A DNA stretch of 45,341 bases from assembly GCA_031286285.1 (NCBI GenBank), contig JAITUN010000083.1, positions 1 to 45,341 of the forward strand, given 5' to 3'. This DNA comes from Bacteroidales bacterium (GTDB lineage Bacteria > Bacteroidota > Bacteroidia > Bacteroidales > WCHB1-69). Position numbers and translations under genes: made by a program. Positions 33,914 through 42,779 of this stretch are shown here, piece by piece (positions within the stretch are counted from its first letter, which is position 1; every line of letters starts with the position of its first letter). The notes under the pieces are model-generated. The model did no database searches, was not told the origin of the DNA, and worked only from the letters and a program-made list of their open reading frames with translations.

Positions 33914-35491
33914 TTGAAAAATAAATATCTTTTTACGCAAATTCTTGTTTTTTTTGTAATCCTTTCTGTGTTTCATACAGCTTTTGCACAAAAAAGTAAA
34001 AAAAATGCAGAAAAGAGGTTGCACGCAAATGATACTCTTTATAACACCTGCATTTCAATATCTCCCGAAATGCTGAAACTGTTGCAAGATGCAAGAATGT
34101 CAAAATATATTACTAATAATATTGTTACATTACAAAACTACAACCTGTTAACCCAAAAAACGCTTGCTTATTTGGAAAACCACGGTTTCCCATTTGCATC
34201 TGTGTATTTAGACAGTGTAGCTGAAAGGAACGATACGGTTTTTGCTAACTATATGATCGATAAAAATGTACTTTGTAATTTTGATTCTATTGTTGTGCGC
34301 GGAAATCTTAAAATATCTAAAAAATATCTTAATGCATATCTCAATTTTAATAAGAAAAAACTTTATAATGAATCTGTTGTGAAACAGATTCCACAATTGT
34401 TGCAGGAAATTCCTTTTGCAACCGAAACAAACTCTTCTAATATTGAGTTCACAGAGAATAAGGCTTCATTATATCTTTTTTTAGATAAAAAGCGCGTTAA
34501 CCAGTTTGATGGATATATCGGATTAGTGCCTGTGAGCGAAAGCTCCGGAAAAATTTCTATCTCAGGGGAGCTTAATTTGCATTTGATGAATCTTTTTACT
34601 ATTGGTGAAAATATTGATTTACAATGGCGTGCAAGTGAACGGTTTTCGCAGTTTTTAGAACTCAAAGTTAATTTTCCTTATCTGTTCGGTACTCCACTCG
34701 GCGTGGACGGACTCTTTATGTTGGATAAAAAAGATACAACTTATTTGAATATGAACTATATTATTGGTCTAAACTACTCATTTAGAGGCTATAATTTTGT
34801 TCGTGTTTATTTCGATTATGCTACATCAAATATTTTAGACAAAACGTTGTATGCAAATTCAAATTTTATCTCTTATTCGGATTATCATAAAACGATGTAT
34901 GGATTTGCCTTTCGTTTTAGAAATTTGGACTATATTTATAATCCTCGCAAAGGATATGATATTAATTTGAATTTTGCAGTAGGTACAAGAAAGATTATTA
35001 AGAATCACAATGCAGATAGTCATTATTATGATGATGTAGATTTGGTAACGGTTCGGTATCGCCTGCAAGGAAAAATAAAAGGATATATTCCTTTACACAA
35101 ACGTTGGGTAATGGTTCTTGGGGCTGAGGGAGGCGGTCTCTTAGGGAAACGAAATTTAGTAAATGAACTGTTTCGTTTTGGCGGAATGAACTCTTTGCAA
35201 GGCTTTGATGACCTTTCTATTCGTGCATCAAGTTATGGAATAGGAGTATGGGAATTGCGGTTTTTAATGGCTAAAATTGCCTATCTCAATGCCTTTTTTA
35301 ATGGCGCTTGGTATGAACAAAATATTTCCGGCAATTATATTCACGATTTTCCTTTCGGATTTGGGCTCGGAATTACATTTACTACCAAAGCCGGGTTATT
35401 CTATTTGAGTTATGCGCTTGGAAAACAATTTAATAATCCGATCTCTTTCAAAACAGGTAAAATTCATTTCGGATTAGCTGTACAGTTTTAA
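33914..35491 (+). CDS. BamA/TamA-like (Omp85-type) outer-membrane protein, TTG start
   Basis: Signal peptide MKNKYLFTQILVFFVILSVFHTAFAQ, POTRA-like 'FDSIVVRGNLKISKKYLNAYLNFNKKKLYNESVV', barrel 'GFAFRFRNLDYIYNPRKGYDINLNFAVGTRK' and 'FRFGGMNSLQGFDD'. Confidence 0.8.
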   Translation: MKNKYLFTQILVFFVILSVFHTAFAQKSKKNAEKRLHANDTLYNTCISISPEMLKLLQDARMSKYITNNIVTLQNYNLLTQKTLAYLENHGFPFASVYLDSVAERNDTVFANYMIDKNVLCNFDSIVVRGNLKISKKYLNAYLNFNKKKLYNESVVKQIPQLLQEIPFATETNSSNIEFTENKASLYLFLDKKRVNQFDGYIGLVPVSESSGKISISGELNLHLMNLFTIGENIDLQWRASERFSQFLELKVNFPYLFGTPLGVDGLFMLDKKDTTYLNMNYIIGLNYSFRGYNFVRVYFDYATSNILDKTLYANSNFISYSDYHKTMYGFAFRFRNLDYIYNPRKGYDINLNFAVGTRKIIKNHNADSHYYDDVDLVTVRYRLQGKIKGYIPLHKRWVMVLGAEGGGLLGKRNLVNELFRFGGMNSLQGFDDLSIRASSYGIGVWELRFLMAKIAYLNAFFNGAWYEQNISGNYIHDFPFGFGLGITFTTKAGLFYLSYALGKQFNNPISFKTGKIHFGLAVQF

Positions 35492-35499
35492 TATTTTTG
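35492..35499 (+). promoter_or_regulatory. -7 box TATTTTTG upstream of the corA-like leader
   Basis: Matches TAnnTTTG, immediately after the stop codon of the preceding gene. Confidence 0.45.
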
Positions 35500-35554
35500 T
35501 ATATTCGCGCCGCCAAAAAGCAAACCAATTAACCACTTAATAAACAAACATATC

Positions 35555-35611
35555 ATGGACGACGGATGGCCCCGTAGCAAAGTAGTGAAAAAAAGGTCGC
35601 AGCGATATTGA
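35555..35611 (+). CDS. Candidate 18-aa leader peptide MDDGWPRSKVVKKRSQRY upstream of the CorA-like gene
   Basis: ATG GAC GAC GGA TGG CCC CGT AGC AAA GTA GTG AAA AAA AGG TCG CAG CGA TAT TGA read directly; unsupported beyond position and codon content. Confidence 0.4.
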   Translation: MDDGWPRSKVVKKRSQRY

Positions 35612-35665
35612 TTCGTTTTTAAGTATTCGCTTCGACAAATTTAAAACCATTTAAAAAAAGAAGCG

Positions 35666-36595
35666 ATGATCAAGTATTTAGTATGTAATGAGGGTTTTTA
35701 TGAAGTAGAAAACTACTCATCAAAAGTTTGGGTGCGCGTAATGTGCCCTACGCCTGAAGAACAAACCTTTTTAGTTCAGGAGTTCGGTGTTCCCGAACCA
35801 TTTTTAAAAGATATTGAAGATAATGAAGAGCGCCCCCGTGTAGAATATGAAGACGGCTGGCGGTTAATCATTGTTCGATTGCCCTTTAAGTCCTTAGAGC
35901 AGGAAAACCTGTATTCTACCGTTCCGTTGGGAATACTCACATCAGGCGAAAAATTTATTACGGTCTGCCATAGCGAGGTAGAAATGATGGATGATTTTGT
36001 GAAATATACACGCCGAAAAAGCTTTGAAGAAAAAAATGCATCAGATCTTATTCTGCATTTACAACTTTCTGCCGCAGTTTGGTTTATGAAATATTTAAAA
36101 ATGATAAATTATGAGATTCAGGATGCAGAACGCCAATTACAAACTTCAATTAGAAATGAAGAGCTATTGGAGTTAATGCGTTTGGAAAGAACATTGACCT
36201 ATTTTGTAACTTCTATCCGGGGTAATGAAATTTTGTTGCAGAAATTTAATAGTATTTTAAAGCAACGACACATGAAATATGATGCCGACCTGTTTGAAGA
36301 CGTAGAGATTGAAATGCAACAGGCACGTACTACAGCCAATGTATATAGTGAAATTTTGTCAGGTATGATGGACGCATTTGCAGCAGTTATCTCTAATAAT
36401 TTAGGGGTAATAATGAAGCGGCTAACATCAATCTCCATTATTCTTATGTTACCCACTTTGATTGCAAGTTATTATGGAATGAATTTAGAAGAGGGGACTT
36501 CTATTCATAATCTGAAATTTTATGTTGTAATTATTGCTTCTTTAATTTTGTCTGTTTTTATTACATTATTTTTCAGGAAAAAGCGATGGTTATAA
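35666..36595 (+). CDS. CorA-like magnesium/divalent cation transporter
   Basis: Cytosolic N-domain, then C-terminal TM pair with YGMN motif: 'LPTLIASYYGMNLEEG...SLILSVFITLFFRKKRWL'. Confidence 0.92.
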   Translation: MIKYLVCNEGFYEVENYSSKVWVRVMCPTPEEQTFLVQEFGVPEPFLKDIEDNEERPRVEYEDGWRLIIVRLPFKSLEQENLYSTVPLGILTSGEKFITVCHSEVEMMDDFVKYTRRKSFEEKNASDLILHLQLSAAVWFMKYLKMINYEIQDAERQLQTSIRNEELLELMRLERTLTYFVTSIRGNEILLQKFNSILKQRHMKYDADLFEDVEIEMQQARTTANVYSEILSGMMDAFAAVISNNLGVIMKRLTSISIILMLPTLIASYYGMNLEEGTSIHNLKFYVVIIASLILSVFITLFFRKKRWL

Positions 36596-36665: not shown

Positions 36666-39600
36666 TTATTTGGGTTCAATCACCAACTTACGTGTAATAA
36701 CCGCTTCGTTGGAAATGATACTTACGAAATAGAATCCGGGAGTGATTTCCGGAAGTTTAATATTAACATCTTTATTTGAAATAACGATGGGTTGGTCAAG
36801 AACTAGAGAACCGGTAAGATTTACGATACGCACTTTTCCTTCGCTTTCACCTTTTGTATTAAATCTCACAGTAATGTCATCTTTCGCAGGGTTCGGGAAT
36901 ATAACAGCATCCAAAATTTCGAATGAGCCAATAATTGGAGGCTGTGTAGAGGTTGTTGGAACAGTTACATGAATAATCATGGTTCTTTTCGCTAATACTA
37001 CTCTAATATAATCCGGTTCACCGGATTGTCCGATAGTATAGAAGTTATTACCTCCAATGGCGCCAATACTGGTACACATAGTTCCACTGATAAGATTACC
37101 GTAAGTTCCTGAGCAAGATTTTGGAAGGTGGGTTACTAAGTCAAAATCAACAGTATAAGTACCAACAGTGTCAAAGCCTGACAACGAAACTTGAATTTGT
37201 CTCTCTTCTAAGAAAGCATCTCTAAAGAAACTGTAACTATTATTTCTGAAAACCCATCCCACATTATCTTGATAGGGGAAATAAGATTTTTCAGTAATAT
37301 TATTGTAAATAACGGGTGCACCTCCTGTAGCGCAATTATTCATAGGAGTAATAAAATTCATAAATGTTCCGGAAAGAGGTTTAGTGATGTAATTATGCAT
37401 AGGAGTAGCTAAGGAGCCATCAAGATAATATTCGTAATCCACAGATAAGCGTAAATCAGGATTTTGGCATTCGGTGGGAACCACGCGGAAATAGTAGTTA
37501 ATCGGTTGTCCTGCTTCTACAGTCATTTCATTAGCATCCGGATCGTAGCTAGGATTAGAAGTGCCGTTAGGAAGGGTTTGCGAAAATTCATATACTAAAA
37601 GTTCCGGTGCGCCTTTTAAGTTAATAATGTTGGATTGTTGGGATTCAAACGTACAATCAATATCTTCAATCTTAATTTTTGCAATAAATACCAAGAAATA
37701 CACATCACAAGATAAAGTAGCGCTATTGAAATCATGGGAAACATAATCAGTTATAGAAGGATCTGTTGAATAAGTCTCTAACAAAGTTAAGTTACCGGTT
37801 CCCATATCATATATATACATCTCAATATCAATAATCCCTGCATAATTGCAATCTACCACAACCCTAACCATAGGATCGTTACAATTTTTTTCCGCAATTA
37901 TATTAAGTTCTAAATCAAGATAATAATTAATAGTGAAGTAACCTGTGACAAAGCAACCATTTTCATCGGTAACGGTAACGTAATAGGTACCTGTATCAAG
38001 ATTTTGAATGGAGGCAGTTGTTTCATCTGTACTCCACTTATAGGAGTATTCTCCGGTTCCGCCTGATGGGGTAACGGTAAGCGCACCATCTCCTGCATTA
38101 CATATTTCTGCATCTCCGGAAATTACAATTTGGAGTTGTGTAGGATTGGTTAAAACAATTTGTGCGGAGGTTACACATTCATTATCATCCTTTACTTCTA
38201 CAGTATAGGTTCCGCCTTGAACTTGAATTGTAGCAGTTTCTTCATTAGTACTCCATTTGTAGTAATAAGGAGATGTTCCCCCGGAAGGAATCACTATGAT
38301 GGAGCCCCACTCATTAAAGCATTTAATGGTGTCAACGACATCAATAATAGCTGATAGTTCTGAGTTGGGTTGTGATACAACAATCGTATCGCTGGCAAGA
38401 CAATTATTTTTATCTAAAACAGTTACATAATATGTTCCGGCAGTAACAGAAATTTGAGATGTTGTTGCGCCCGTACTCCATAAATAGGAATAGGTTGGGG
38501 TACCGCCTGTTACATTAGCTGTAAGAGGTGCACTTCCTCCATAACAGAGAATGGGTTGTCCATTATTAATACTTACAGCCAAGGTGTCTATGTCATCAGT
38601 GATGATAAAAGGAATCGTATCGGTACATCCATTTTCATCAATAACTACAAATTCATATTCGCCGGCAGGCAGAGCAATGGTTCCGTCAAATTCTTCTTCA
38701 TTATATATAAATGTATAGTCTCCGGTTCCGCCGGTTGCTTCAACGGTTACAGTAGCATTGCCACCATAACATTTAATAGAATCGTTTTCACCAATATATG
38801 CACTTATTATTAGTGGGTCAGGTTCGGTTACGGTTATTTGTACATCAACATCACAATTGTTTTCGTCAATTACAGTAAATGTATAGGTACCGGCTTCTAC
38901 TTCTTTAGTGCCGTTAAATTCTGTATCATTATACCAATATGTATAAGGTGGTGTTCCTCCGGTAGGAGTAACAGTTACAGTGGCTGTACCACCGTGACAA
39001 GTAATGCCGTTGTCTGTAATATTGGCTTCTGCTTCTAAGAGAGAAGGTTGAGTTACTACAAATACTGTAGTATCTGTACAACCGTTAGCATCGTGAACAA
39101 CAAAAGTGTGTGATCCGGCTTGCAAAGAAACGGTGCGAGTGTCACCGGTAAATGGTAACAACGATTCCATTCCAACAATTTCAAGACTATAATCAGGGGT
39201 TCCGCCTTCTGCTACAACAGTAACAAGGGCTGTTCCGTTATAGCACTTAATAGAGTCTTGTGCTCCGATAGAGATTGTTGTAGTAATGGGGTCGGGTTCG
39301 GTTACAGTGATAAATGCAGTATCTACACATCCTTTACTATCTGTAACGATGAGTTCATAATCATCGGCAAGTAGTTGTGCAGTAATGGTTGAAGTAAACT
39401 GGGTTCCTTTATAGAAATAAGGCGGGGTTCCGCCGGTAGCAGCAATGGTTACGGTGGCTTTACCGCCGTTACATAAAATAGAATCATTCTCTCCGATATA
39501 AGCGCTTGCATTTAAAGGATATTCCGGACCGGGTACATTCACATATTTCCAACTTGCGGTACAACCTAAATCATCTATTACACCTACACAAACGCCGGTA

Positions 39601-42600
39601 GTTCTTCCGAAATTTTTAGAATTTCCCGACTGCCAGGTTTCTCCACAATCAAAAGAGTATTCGAAAGGAGCATTATTACCGGTAAGAACCGTTATGGTAA
39701 TGGTTCCGTCTTCATCTCCATAACAAGTTTCAGGGGTAACTGTGGTAGAGAAAGTAGGTGATTCCATCACAATAACTGTTTTTGATTTAATATAATTACA
39801 AGAATAAACGTCATTACCGTAATGTCTTATAAGCGTAACATCTACCCAAAATTCTTGGTTGGCAGCAGTTACAGTAACATAGGGAGTAGTTATTGGATCT
39901 CCGTGTGTATCTTTTATTGACCACACATAAGTGATAGTATCAGGTGATATAAGAGATTCCGGTTTTGAAATATTCACTCTTGCAATGGTGTGTCCGCCTT
40001 CGCAAATTGAATCATCATCCAAAGTAATGTTGAATTTTAAATCCATACCTAACACATAAATTTCTTTTGGATTCAGGCAACCATATTCATTTTCAGCAAT
40101 TACAACATAATTTCCTCCATCTAAGTCTGAGATTACATTTCCAATAACAGGATGATCTGTATCTTCTAAATAATAATTATATGTAGTAGGAGATAAAGTA
40201 ATAGTACCGGGAACATAATCTTCACAATCATATTCAGCGGTTACTTCATAAGTAAAATCAGGTATCGGATTCAAAGTAATTGTTACTGTATCGGTTGCTT
40301 GACAACCGTTATCGTCGGTTACTACTACCCAATATCTGAAATATTCAATAGTATAAATATCATCAGGATCTGTAGTAGGTTTAACGGTAATTATATCTTC
40401 ATCGTCCGGAGTTTGAATACCTCCGTCGCAGGTTTGGCAATCTTCTATCCATCCCCATTCGTAGGAATATGCCGGTTTTCCGTTTGCAGGAACTGCTTCT
40501 AATTCAAATTCATTGTCACCTGAATTACATTGAGCAGTTTCATCAGGCGTAATAGCAACGGATAAAGGTTCCGGCGAATCGAAAGTAATATTAAACAATC
40601 TTGAATTTCCGCAACCATCGGTAGCTTCCACTCTATAGTGTCCATTGTCGCCGGTTATCACAGGGTCTCCATCTCCCAAAGAAATAATATGGTAGTGGTG
40701 GTGGTGTCCTCCTGATACTCTGGTAAGAAGACGTACTTGAATATTATCATAAGCCGTGCAGTTATCATAAAACTCATACCATTTTTTCAAAGAATCAATT
40801 ATGTTTTCAGGAAGAACTGTTGTGCAATCAGGTCCATACTCTGTTAGAACATGAATATCTGTTTTTTCACTATGCGGAGCATCATTATCATAAACATATA
40901 CGTAAGAAGTATCTTTAGCTATTACGCCGCATTTGGTAGTAGCAACCCAGGCACGTTCAATGGTATAAACAAGTTTATCATTACATATTCTTTCGCCATC
41001 TACGATATGGTCATCTATTTCATCGGTATAGGTAAATTCAACATCATCATAATAAGCGCTACAATTCATCTCATATCCGGGGAAACCATCAATAACTTCA
41101 GGATTTGCATTATACTCACAATTGCCTGAATTTTCTATGGTTCCTTCGTCAGAATCAATAGATATATCTCTGGGATACAACGTTATTTCTTCTTTTACAG
41201 TAATAGTAGCGCTTGCTGTTGCGGTACAACCGCTGAAGTCGTCGGTTACAATAACGCTAACATTATGTGATTCGTCACAATCGCCTAATTCCACGCAACC
41301 TTGTGCATTGGCATTTGTCCATTCATAGCTATAGGAGTCATATCCATTAGATACAGTCAGGGTTGGGCAATATTCGTATGGAGTTGGGCTGGGGCAAGCA
41401 AATTCATTTTCCATTTCGGCTCTTACTTGTTTATTTACCCAAACTACATACTGAGTAGCATCGCTTTGGCAACCATTAACGGTAGAGGTAACATACACAT
41501 AGTAGTTTTGGTCAGTATGATGATAATGGCGCGTGAATGTTTTTCCGGTATGAATTAAATTTGTAAGCGCCGGATCTGAGTACCAATTAAAAGTATAGTC
41601 AAATCCAAACCCGGTTTCGTATGGGTCTGAAGCAGTAAGAGTTGCTGACCCATGTCCGCAGATGGCTGTACTGTCTTTTACAGGGGCATCGGGTCTTGGG
41701 TTCCAAATCAAAAGTTGTGTAACAATACTATCAATAAAATCAACGGGACAACTACTTTCGCCGCTATATTTAGGGTAGTTTATTTTTTTAATGTAAGGAG
41801 GGTTAGGAATCACAAGAGAGGGGAGGTCGCTGGGATATTCAAAAACTAATGAGTCTCCTTCAGGGTCTTTTGGGTTTTGGATTTTGATTATTTCATTAGC
41901 GCAAACTGAAATATCATCTAAAGAGCCATAATCAATTTCTACAAAATCAAAGCTACCTAACTCTTCTCCAAGATATGCTCCATGTCCGCCCATATAAGTA
42001 TTTTGTTGGTTTTCAATATAATATTCTTGGAAATCGATTCCGGCAAGGCGTTCCATCACTTTAAAGTGTGCGATAACTTCAAGCGAAGAATATCTGGTAA
42101 TTTTCAGACGAAGGTAATTGTTATTACAAGCCCATTCAAGGAAGTCGGCATAAATATAATTATACCAGCGATGTTGCACTCCGTAAGGATTGAAATAACC
42201 TTGTAGCGTTCCGTAGTTTCCCCAACTGTCAATTTGTCCCGGGAAGTCAGTTACTACGGCACGTTTCACGTTATCAATAGTAACGTAAGGCGGGTCAATT
42301 TTGGATAGATTTCCCATCCCTGACAATAGAGGACCGGAACCTTGAAATTGTTTGAGATTATCAAGGGGGTTAACTAAAGGGTTAACAAGGGGCAGCCACC
42401 ATTCAAGTTCAACATTCATGTAATTAAGCATATTGCCGGGAGTTGCATTTAACGGTCTGTCCCAAGGCACAGTATCGCCATCTAAATTAACAACATAGAA
42501 TTCCCAGTCAAGAGAAACTTTGGTTGATGAATTGGCGCAATTAAAAAAGCGGAAGTAGTAGTATTCTACTTTTCCGTTGTTTACGCCCGGAATAATTGGA

Positions 42601-42779
42601 TTCAGATTGTACTTTGCATCTTCGAAACTCTCATCATCAAATCGTAGGAGAACTTGATCCGGGTCAATTTGTACAAGGTAGAGGCAGCAACTGGTAGTGC
42701 CGGGTGTTTGTGCGTTTACTGTGTTTGTGAACATAGTAAACACTAAGCAGAGAAAACTAATAAATAATAATTTTTTCAT
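36666..42779 (-). CDS. Giant secreted adhesin-like protein with SprB repeats and T9SS C-terminal sorting domain
   Basis: Signal peptide MKKLLFISFLCLVFTMFTNTVNAQ; about eight SprB-type repeats (CYGGxATVTVxxTGGTPPYTY...AGTYTFTVIDENGC); C-terminal AVIFPNPAKDDITVRFNTKGESEGKVRIVNLTGSLV...GFYFVSIISNEAVITRKLVIEPK. Confidence 0.93.
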   Translation of the reverse strand: MKKLLFISFLCLVFTMFTNTVNAQTPGTTSCCLYLVQIDPDQVLLRFDDESFEDAKYNLNPIIPGVNNGKVEYYYFRFFNCANSSTKVSLDWEFYVVNLDGDTVPWDRPLNATPGNMLNYMNVELEWWLPLVNPLVNPLDNLKQFQGSGPLLSGMGNLSKIDPPYVTIDNVKRAVVTDFPGQIDSWGNYGTLQGYFNPYGVQHRWYNYIYADFLEWACNNNYLRLKITRYSSLEVIAHFKVMERLAGIDFQEYYIENQQNTYMGGHGAYLGEELGSFDFVEIDYGSLDDISVCANEIIKIQNPKDPEGDSLVFEYPSDLPSLVIPNPPYIKKINYPKYSGESSCPVDFIDSIVTQLLIWNPRPDAPVKDSTAICGHGSATLTASDPYETGFGFDYTFNWYSDPALTNLIHTGKTFTRHYHHTDQNYYVYVTSTVNGCQSDATQYVVWVNKQVRAEMENEFACPSPTPYEYCPTLTVSNGYDSYSYEWTNANAQGCVELGDCDESHNVSVIVTDDFSGCTATASATITVKEEITLYPRDISIDSDEGTIENSGNCEYNANPEVIDGFPGYEMNCSAYYDDVEFTYTDEIDDHIVDGERICNDKLVYTIERAWVATTKCGVIAKDTSYVYVYDNDAPHSEKTDIHVLTEYGPDCTTVLPENIIDSLKKWYEFYDNCTAYDNIQVRLLTRVSGGHHHHYHIISLGDGDPVITGDNGHYRVEATDGCGNSRLFNITFDSPEPLSVAITPDETAQCNSGDNEFELEAVPANGKPAYSYEWGWIEDCQTCDGGIQTPDDEDIITVKPTTDPDDIYTIEYFRYWVVVTDDNGCQATDTVTITLNPIPDFTYEVTAEYDCEDYVPGTITLSPTTYNYYLEDTDHPVIGNVISDLDGGNYVVIAENEYGCLNPKEIYVLGMDLKFNITLDDDSICEGGHTIARVNISKPESLISPDTITYVWSIKDTHGDPITTPYVTVTAANQEFWVDVTLIRHYGNDVYSCNYIKSKTVIVMESPTFSTTVTPETCYGDEDGTITITVLTGNNAPFEYSFDCGETWQSGNSKNFGRTTGVCVGVIDDLGCTASWKYVNVPGPEYPLNASAYIGENDSILCNGGKATVTIAATGGTPPYFYKGTQFTSTITAQLLADDYELIVTDSKGCVDTAFITVTEPDPITTTISIGAQDSIKCYNGTALVTVVAEGGTPDYSLEIVGMESLLPFTGDTRTVSLQAGSHTFVVHDANGCTDTTVFVVTQPSLLEAEANITDNGITCHGGTATVTVTPTGGTPPYTYWYNDTEFNGTKEVEAGTYTFTVIDENNCDVDVQITVTEPDPLIISAYIGENDSIKCYGGNATVTVEATGGTGDYTFIYNEEEFDGTIALPAGEYEFVVIDENGCTDTIPFIITDDIDTLAVSINNGQPILCYGGSAPLTANVTGGTPTYSYLWSTGATTSQISVTAGTYYVTVLDKNNCLASDTIVVSQPNSELSAIIDVVDTIKCFNEWGSIIVIPSGGTSPYYYKWSTNEETATIQVQGGTYTVEVKDDNECVTSAQIVLTNPTQLQIVISGDAEICNAGDGALTVTPSGGTGEYSYKWSTDETTASIQNLDTGTYYVTVTDENGCFVTGYFTINYYLDLELNIIAEKNCNDPMVRVVVDCNYAGIIDIEMYIYDMGTGNLTLLETYSTDPSITDYVSHDFNSATLSCDVYFLVFIAKIKIEDIDCTFESQQSNIINLKGAPELLVYEFSQTLPNGTSNPSYDPDANEMTVEAGQPINYYFRVVPTECQNPDLRLSVDYEYYLDGSLATPMHNYITKPLSGTFMNFITPMNNCATGGAPVIYNNITEKSYFPYQDNVGWVFRNNSYSFFRDAFLEERQIQVSLSGFDTVGTYTVDFDLVTHLPKSCSGTYGNLISGTMCTSIGAIGGNNFYTIGQSGEPDYIRVVLAKRTMIIHVTVPTTSTQPPIIGSFEILDAVIFPNPAKDDITVRFNTKGESEGKVRIVNLTGSLVLDQPIVISNKDVNIKLPEITPGFYFVSIISNEAVITRKLVIEPK
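37930..39730 (-). repeat. About eight tandem SprB-type repeat units (roughly 75 aa / 225 bp each) within the adhesin CDS
   Basis: Recurring GGTxxY ... AGTYxxTVxDxNGC ... C[YNH]GG pattern; GGTPPY-equivalent codons recur at roughly 215-250 bp intervals. Confidence 0.9.

Follow-up and report, generated by a model that had tools for sequence, protein, structure and literature searches.

A short acidic leader ORF and a putative RNA switch upstream of magnesium transporter genes in Bacteroidia

Introduction

What is the role of a short open reading frame that stands between a promoter-like box and the start of a corA-type magnesium transporter gene in a member of the Bacteroidales, and could its translation decide whether the transporter is made? 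The locus lies in a 45,341-nucleotide stretch (hereafter 'the window') of GenBank assembly GCA_031286285.1, contig JAITUN010000083.1. A sequence-only reading of this locus proposed that the upstream ORF (uORF) and two alternative RNA pairings form a leader/attenuator device for corA; comparison among relatives supports that proposal and widens it. Acidic residues early in a nascent peptide cause ribosomes to fall off, more so in low Mg2+, in the case of MgtL (PMC11282234), and destabilization by acidic residues drives mgtB translation via the uORF mgtQ (PMC8092293).

The corA locus of the window

The features of the locus are listed in Table 1; the positions originally given for the box, the ORF, the pairing arms, and the corA ATG all proved exact to the base. 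The controlled gene satisfies both criteria for a CorA transporter (a CorA domain and a GMN motif): its product matches PF01544 with an E value of 8.9e-51 (Pfam), contains the motif as YYGMN, and has relatives among solved CorA proteins. Its nearest named relatives come from Bacteroidales, Lentimicrobiaceae, and Bacteroidetes metagenome-assembled genomes. The box TATTTTTG is one that we take to belong to the Bacteroidota-type -7 promoter class; the predicted transcription start, which has not been mapped, would then lie at ~35505, 5' of the uORF. Most relatives carry a TTTGC-type box ~25-50 nt 5' of their uORF. A phosphate acetyltransferase gene is the upstream neighbour of the gene for the POTRA-match protein.

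Table 1. Features of the corA locus and its neighbours in the window
Feature	Position	Strand	Basis or remark
Gene for POTRA-match protein	33914-35491	+	PF07244; immediately 5' of the corA promoter box
Putative -7 promoter box, TATTTTTG (TAnnTTTG)	35492-35499	+	Sequence; no mapped TSS
Leader ORF, MDDGWPRSKVVKKRSQRY followed by a stop, 18 codons	35555-35611	+	Sequence; MD[D/E] family member
Leader N-terminus, MDDGWP	35555-35572	+	Conserved acidic residues (and Pro); proposed ribosome-destabilizing sensor part
Segment 1, GTCGCAGCGATA	35596-35607	+	Within last uORF codons; pairs with segment 2
Segment 2, TATTCGCTTCGAC	35624-35636	+	Common to both exclusive helices
Segment 3, GAAGCGA	35660-35666	+	Abuts and includes first base of corA ATG; pairs with 35627-35633
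corA, CorA-family Mg2+ transporter, 309 aa	35666-36595	+	PF01544; YYGMN motif
Gene for repetitive 2037-aa protein	36666-42779	-	C-terminal sorting-like end; convergent with corA

A leader family upstream of corA

CorA orthologs were gathered, with their upstream DNA, across the order and the phylum. An MD[D/E]-initial uORF of 5-40 codons is present in 83 of 104 Bacteroidia corA upstream regions and near variants of it in six more (examples of leader starts are MDDYHSEY, MDEGPYHSK, and MDDSNPR); ~15 of the 104 are without such a uORF. The rate in dinucleotide shuffles is 0.7%, tiles of the window give 1 in 274, and no MD[D/E] uORF was found on the reverse strand of the corA upstream regions, before the window family's 24 divergent CorA paralogs, or before 14 CorA orthologs from outside Bacteroidia (or misplaced), nearly all of them from one family that, by inference from kinship, resembles Chlorobia. 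The attenuator proposal would have been refuted by an absence of the mini-ORF from relatives; instead, the ORF is kept across the class Bacteroidia. Four close relatives, with CorA identities of 90, 85, 84, and 67%, have an ORF of 17-18 codons at the same place: MDVGWLCRIVLEKQSQRY, MDDGWPCSKMKNQSQRY (L003, with a 3-nt in-frame deletion), MDDGWPCWVVMKKESLRY, and MDSDGYPPSSILTKFIRV.

Asp occupies position 2 in 87 of 89 corA leaders and an acidic residue position 3 in 85 of the 89. The third codon positions of these acids vary (GAT/GAC, GAA/GAG), and thus the peptide is more conserved than the DNA at the leader start. The conserved part is the acidic N-terminus (MD[D/E], often followed by Gly-Pro), a point absent from the sequence-only reading. 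A short conserved ORF upstream of an Mg2+ transporter gene and acidic residues in the first codons, with or without Pro, are the criteria for an MgtL/MgtQ-like leader class, and both are met. Relative L002 is an exception, as its leader MDVGWL has a single acid and lacks Pro; Pro is likewise missing from the 8-codon MDDYY forms, which have two acids. Both are weaker than MgtL in this respect and, like the upstream regions without the uORF, count against the mechanism proposed below.

Pattern ATGGAYGAYTAYCAY occurs once per genome in 16 of 20 genomes, each time at the corA leader. The class-wide pattern ATGGAYGARGGNCCNGCN, run over 295 genomes, gave four matches, all on or inside longer reading frames, and revealed no new target. 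A third target, mgtE, was considered and ruled out, as the leader precedes none of 15 mgtE genes drawn from comparable genomes.

Some loci have peculiarities of their own. At L095 and L096, leader MDDGPCKLKLNPSC lies >200 nt 5' of corA, and the stretch between the two contains, just past the hairpin, a small-protein reading frame (in L095, MFNRNFLKSFYWQAKGLRQQ...) that may be the true target of control. At L062, two tandem tRNA genes with identical scores (1154-1323) directly precede the corA leader, without an obvious promoter box between them and the leader.

A second target: MgtE_N/nrmT operons

In 18 genomes, an unbiased scan with pattern ATGGAYGANGGNCCN gave 22 matches: 14 corA leaders, seven frames of at least 50 residues, and one further short ORF, MDEGPAGILIINLI, located 56 nt 5' of an operon that encodes an MgtE_N/CBS/PRC protein followed by one of the Nramp family (nrmT type). 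Among relatives of the first of these two genes, a leader beginning MD[D/E/G/P]xP precedes the operon at 28 of the 29 loci with usable upstream DNA, typically with the start MD[D/E]GP (MD[D/E]GPA...). The leader family extends beyond corA, the only gene for which a leader had been proposed. The Bacteroidales nrmT leader of L221, MDPEPANSWNSPEE, begins MDPEP; its resemblance to the acidic/Pro start of enterobacterial MgtL is striking and likely reflects convergence.

In Clostridia, operons of the MgtE_N-nrmT type serve Mg2+ transport and are controlled by M-box RNAs, although at least one nrmT product (that of A. capsulatum) carries Mn2+ (PMC4072509); Mg2+ as the nrmT substrate in Bacteroidales is assumed here. 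A single type of leader thus stands before both corA and MgtE_N-nrmT, whose products are likely Mg2+ transporters of unrelated kinds.

Alternative RNA pairings

The first proposed pairing, between the end of the mini-ORF (AGCGATAT at 35601-35608) and the middle of the spacer (TATTCGCT at 35624-35631), is present in the sequence, but its extent had been drawn too short: the 1:2 helix joins GTCG-C-AGCGA-TA (35596-35607) to TA-T-TCGCT-T-CGAC (35624-35636), with one mismatch and one bulge. In the competing 2:3 helix, TCGCTTC (35627-35633) pairs with segment 3 at the corA ATG (35666). Segment 1 would be under a ribosome standing at the uORF stop codon.

Folding of the leader RNA, which the sequence-only reading had suggested as a check, bears out the local hairpins but not the leader as a whole. 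The 1:2 hairpin has a free energy of -12.9 kcal/mol (z -2.5; 5 of 200 shuffles equally good) and the 2:3 hairpin -10.7 kcal/mol (z -3.5; 1 of 200), whereas the whole 186-nt leader has no unusual stability relative to shuffles (z +0.6), for which reason its fold was excluded from the evidence and the case rests on conservation. Shuffling of the intergenic stretch gave p=0.007 for 1:2, p=0.096 for 2:3, and p=0.010 for their sum. These single-sequence statistics are modest, and the value for 2:3, along with the unremarkable stability of the full leader, counts against the switch.

Both pairings are kept in all four close relatives. In L002-L004, the 2:3 pairing reaches, by sequence, through the whole ATG, and in L005, the most distant of the four, both helices are made of other letters (1:2, TTTATACGA/TCGTATAAA; 2:3, TCATCGT/ACGATGA, the latter including the start codon, as judged from sequence and folds).

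Across the family, 83 corA leaders were compared with dinucleotide shuffles; the helix tests excluded five leaders with a uORF-corA gap of >200 nt and one with a gap of 35 nt. At p<0.05, 78% of leaders have a significant 1:2 duplex, 58% a significant 2:3 duplex (the middle with SD/start), and 80% a significant sum of the two; because the species are related, these p-values are not independent. Segments pair better with their own partners than with those swapped in from other species (-15.2 vs -8.4 kcal/mol for 1:2 and -11.6 vs -7.3 kcal/mol for 2:3), and the spacer does so even with the start without SD (-6.0 vs -3.8 kcal/mol). The same test goes in the same direction for 28 nrmT leaders. Partner swapping was used in place of column-wise counting of 2:3 changes, for which the gaps in the spacer between groups made the alignment unsuitable. 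Three groups of relatives were examined for the 1:2 helix: the pairs changed on both sides number 3 of 12 in the first, 7 of 9 in the second, and 6 of 9 in the third, and 90.5-94.5% of cells are paired, a share that falls to 38-59% when the register is slid. Compensatory changes, the absence of which would also have told against the sequence-only reading, thus exist in this helix, and its claim of mutually exclusive pairings is upheld by covarying stems and by the performance of 1:2 and 2:3 against both shuffles and swapped partners.

A ribosome standing at the uORF stop would, by its presumed footprint, overlap the 5' arm of the longest helix in 82% of leaders, compared with 39% in shuffles. 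A translational attenuator should have a pair of mutually exclusive helices, of which one masks SD/start, and a helix arm that a ribosome translating the uORF would cover; the leaders have both. Overlap of the two segment-2 arms was also tried as a statistic and dropped, as it is not above chance owing to the shortness of the middle region.

Proposed mechanism

We consider it probable that a translated leader controls corA at translation initiation, with Mg2+ read via ribosome drop-off. The leader ORF and the RNA switch are supported by comparison; the ribosome itself is probably the magnesium gauge, an inference made without a measured Mg2+ response, and translation of the uORF is presumed, untested by any translation data. 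Segment 1, i.e. the uORF end or the bases just past its stop, pairs with segment 2, which can alternatively pair with segment 3, comprising the SD and/or the transporter start codon. When Mg2+ is scarce, ribosomes starting the acidic peptide would fall off through intrinsic destabilization, as on MgtL; segment 1 would remain free, 1:2 would form, segment 3 would be open, and CorA or NrmT would be made. When Mg2+ is ample, ribosomes at the uORF stop would cover segment 1, allowing 2:3 to form and shut the start site. Because 2:3 hides the start and a stop-codon ribosome covers segment 1, completed uORF translation is inferred to be the OFF state and aborted translation the ON state, an assignment that the sequence-only reading did not make. 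An importer turned on by ribosome abortion on an acidic peptide would fit both targets.

Relation to known systems

The nearest known system in logic is Salmonella mgtQ, an 8-aa uORF before mgtB. It shares with the Bacteroidia leader a very short uORF with early acids (Asp2 and Glu5 in mgtQ) and control at the translational level, by alternative stem-loops in which the RBS of an Mg2+ transporter gene is either masked or accessible (PMC8092293). However, mgtQ has four segments (1:2 plus 3:4 vs 2:3) and the Bacteroidia leader three, so that a ribosome on segment 1 means ON in the former, whereas completed translation would mean OFF in the latter; moreover, mgtQ sits between mgtC and mgtB rather than in a 5' leader, and the two have no sequence kinship. 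MgtL of mgtA (Escherichia coli and Salmonella) has a similarly acidic/Pro N-terminus (its EPDP motif recalls the MDPEP of L221), two exclusive RNA folds, and efficient uORF translation that represses an Mg2+ transporter, but acts on (Rho-linked) transcription termination, precedes a P-type ATPase gene, and belongs to another phylum and another RNA. In corL of corA (E. coli and Salmonella), uORF translation is inverse to corA expression and follows Mg2+ (PMC11552253); there, too, control is by Rho-dependent termination, with rut sites and, in E. coli, a UUG start, and no similarity is evident. The M-box (ykoK) Mg2+ riboswitch stands before corA, mgtE, mgtA, and MgtE_N-nrmT operons (PMC4072509) but is a ligand-binding aptamer without a uORF.

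In ermC-type attenuators, leader translation picks one of two exclusive hairpins and thereby exposes or hides the RBS. Drug-dependent stalling turns ermC ON through four segments, whereas the Bacteroidia leader has no drug link. We found no Bacteroidota Mg2+ leader in the open full-text literature, a search that most subscription papers fell outside.

Alternative explanations

The uORF and switch could be real and yet respond to an amino acid or charged tRNA (Pro, Gly, or Tyr), as in classical attenuation, instead of Mg2+. Pro is present within the first eight codons of 50 of 89 corA leaders and all 28 nrmT leaders, and Salmonella mgtP responds to charged tRNA-Pro (PMC8092293); nevertheless, the residues that the leaders share are the acids at positions 2 and 3, while the remainder varies (YH, GP, SN, YY), runs of a single codon are lacking, and both targets are Mg2+-type transporters, which together make this explanation unlikely. 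We likewise regard with considerable doubt an action on transcription, with start-codon pairing being secondary: enterobacterial Mg2+ uORFs are linked to Rho, and Salmonella corL and mgtL operate by Rho-dependent termination (PMC11552253), but here the SD/start itself makes up segment 3, and the spacer within it pairs with segment 2 better than expected by chance and better than swapped partners do.

That the RNA itself binds Mg2+, the uORF being incidental, is very unlikely. M-box RNAs do so elsewhere before corA and nrmT (PMC4072509), but a search of Rfam at gathering and relaxed thresholds matched no family to the leader (only tRNA or noise), the hairpins are of a simple kind, and from species to species their sequence varies freely, in contrast to the conserved acidic start of the peptide. 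Mere loading of ribosomes, with reinitiation or coupling but no sensing, would accord with the distance from uORF stop to transporter start, mostly ~45-65 nt; it is scarcely plausible, as it leaves unexplained the conserved acids and the two exclusive, covarying helices. A chance ORF with chance stems could be entertained only on the single-sequence statistics of the window, is contradicted by all comparative results, and deserves practically no weight. Translational control by a leader that reads Mg2+ through ribosome drop-off remains our preferred interpretation.

Implications and related elements

Bacteroidota are a main phylum of the human gut, and the leader arrangement recurs across an extensive group of bacteria from the gut and the environment. 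If the proposed mechanism is true, the ribosome as an Mg2+ sensor is no enterobacterial oddity, having arisen independently with different RNA wiring, and such leaders could flag unrecognized Mg2+ genes, as M-box RNAs flagged nrmT. More speculatively, and with no more than slight confidence, the fragility of ribosomes on acidic N-termini might serve generally as an Mg2+ gauge, with more than one evolutionary origin, and in Bacteroidia might have become wired to translational switches upstream of various transporter types.

A separate element was observed before the CorA-like genes L011-L034, divergent paralogs (23-26% identical) in the family of the window's corA. All 24 have a start-stop element, ATGTAG or ATGTAA, which is possibly a minimal uORF; the paralogs might have a peptide-free form of the gauge, with the bare initiating ribosome as the sensor. 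The element lies 3' of a TTTGC-type box and 5' of GGAGGTT, at a nearly fixed distance of 42-51 nt from the CorA-like start, and a stop is preserved in every case although the codon differs (21 TAG, 3 TAA).
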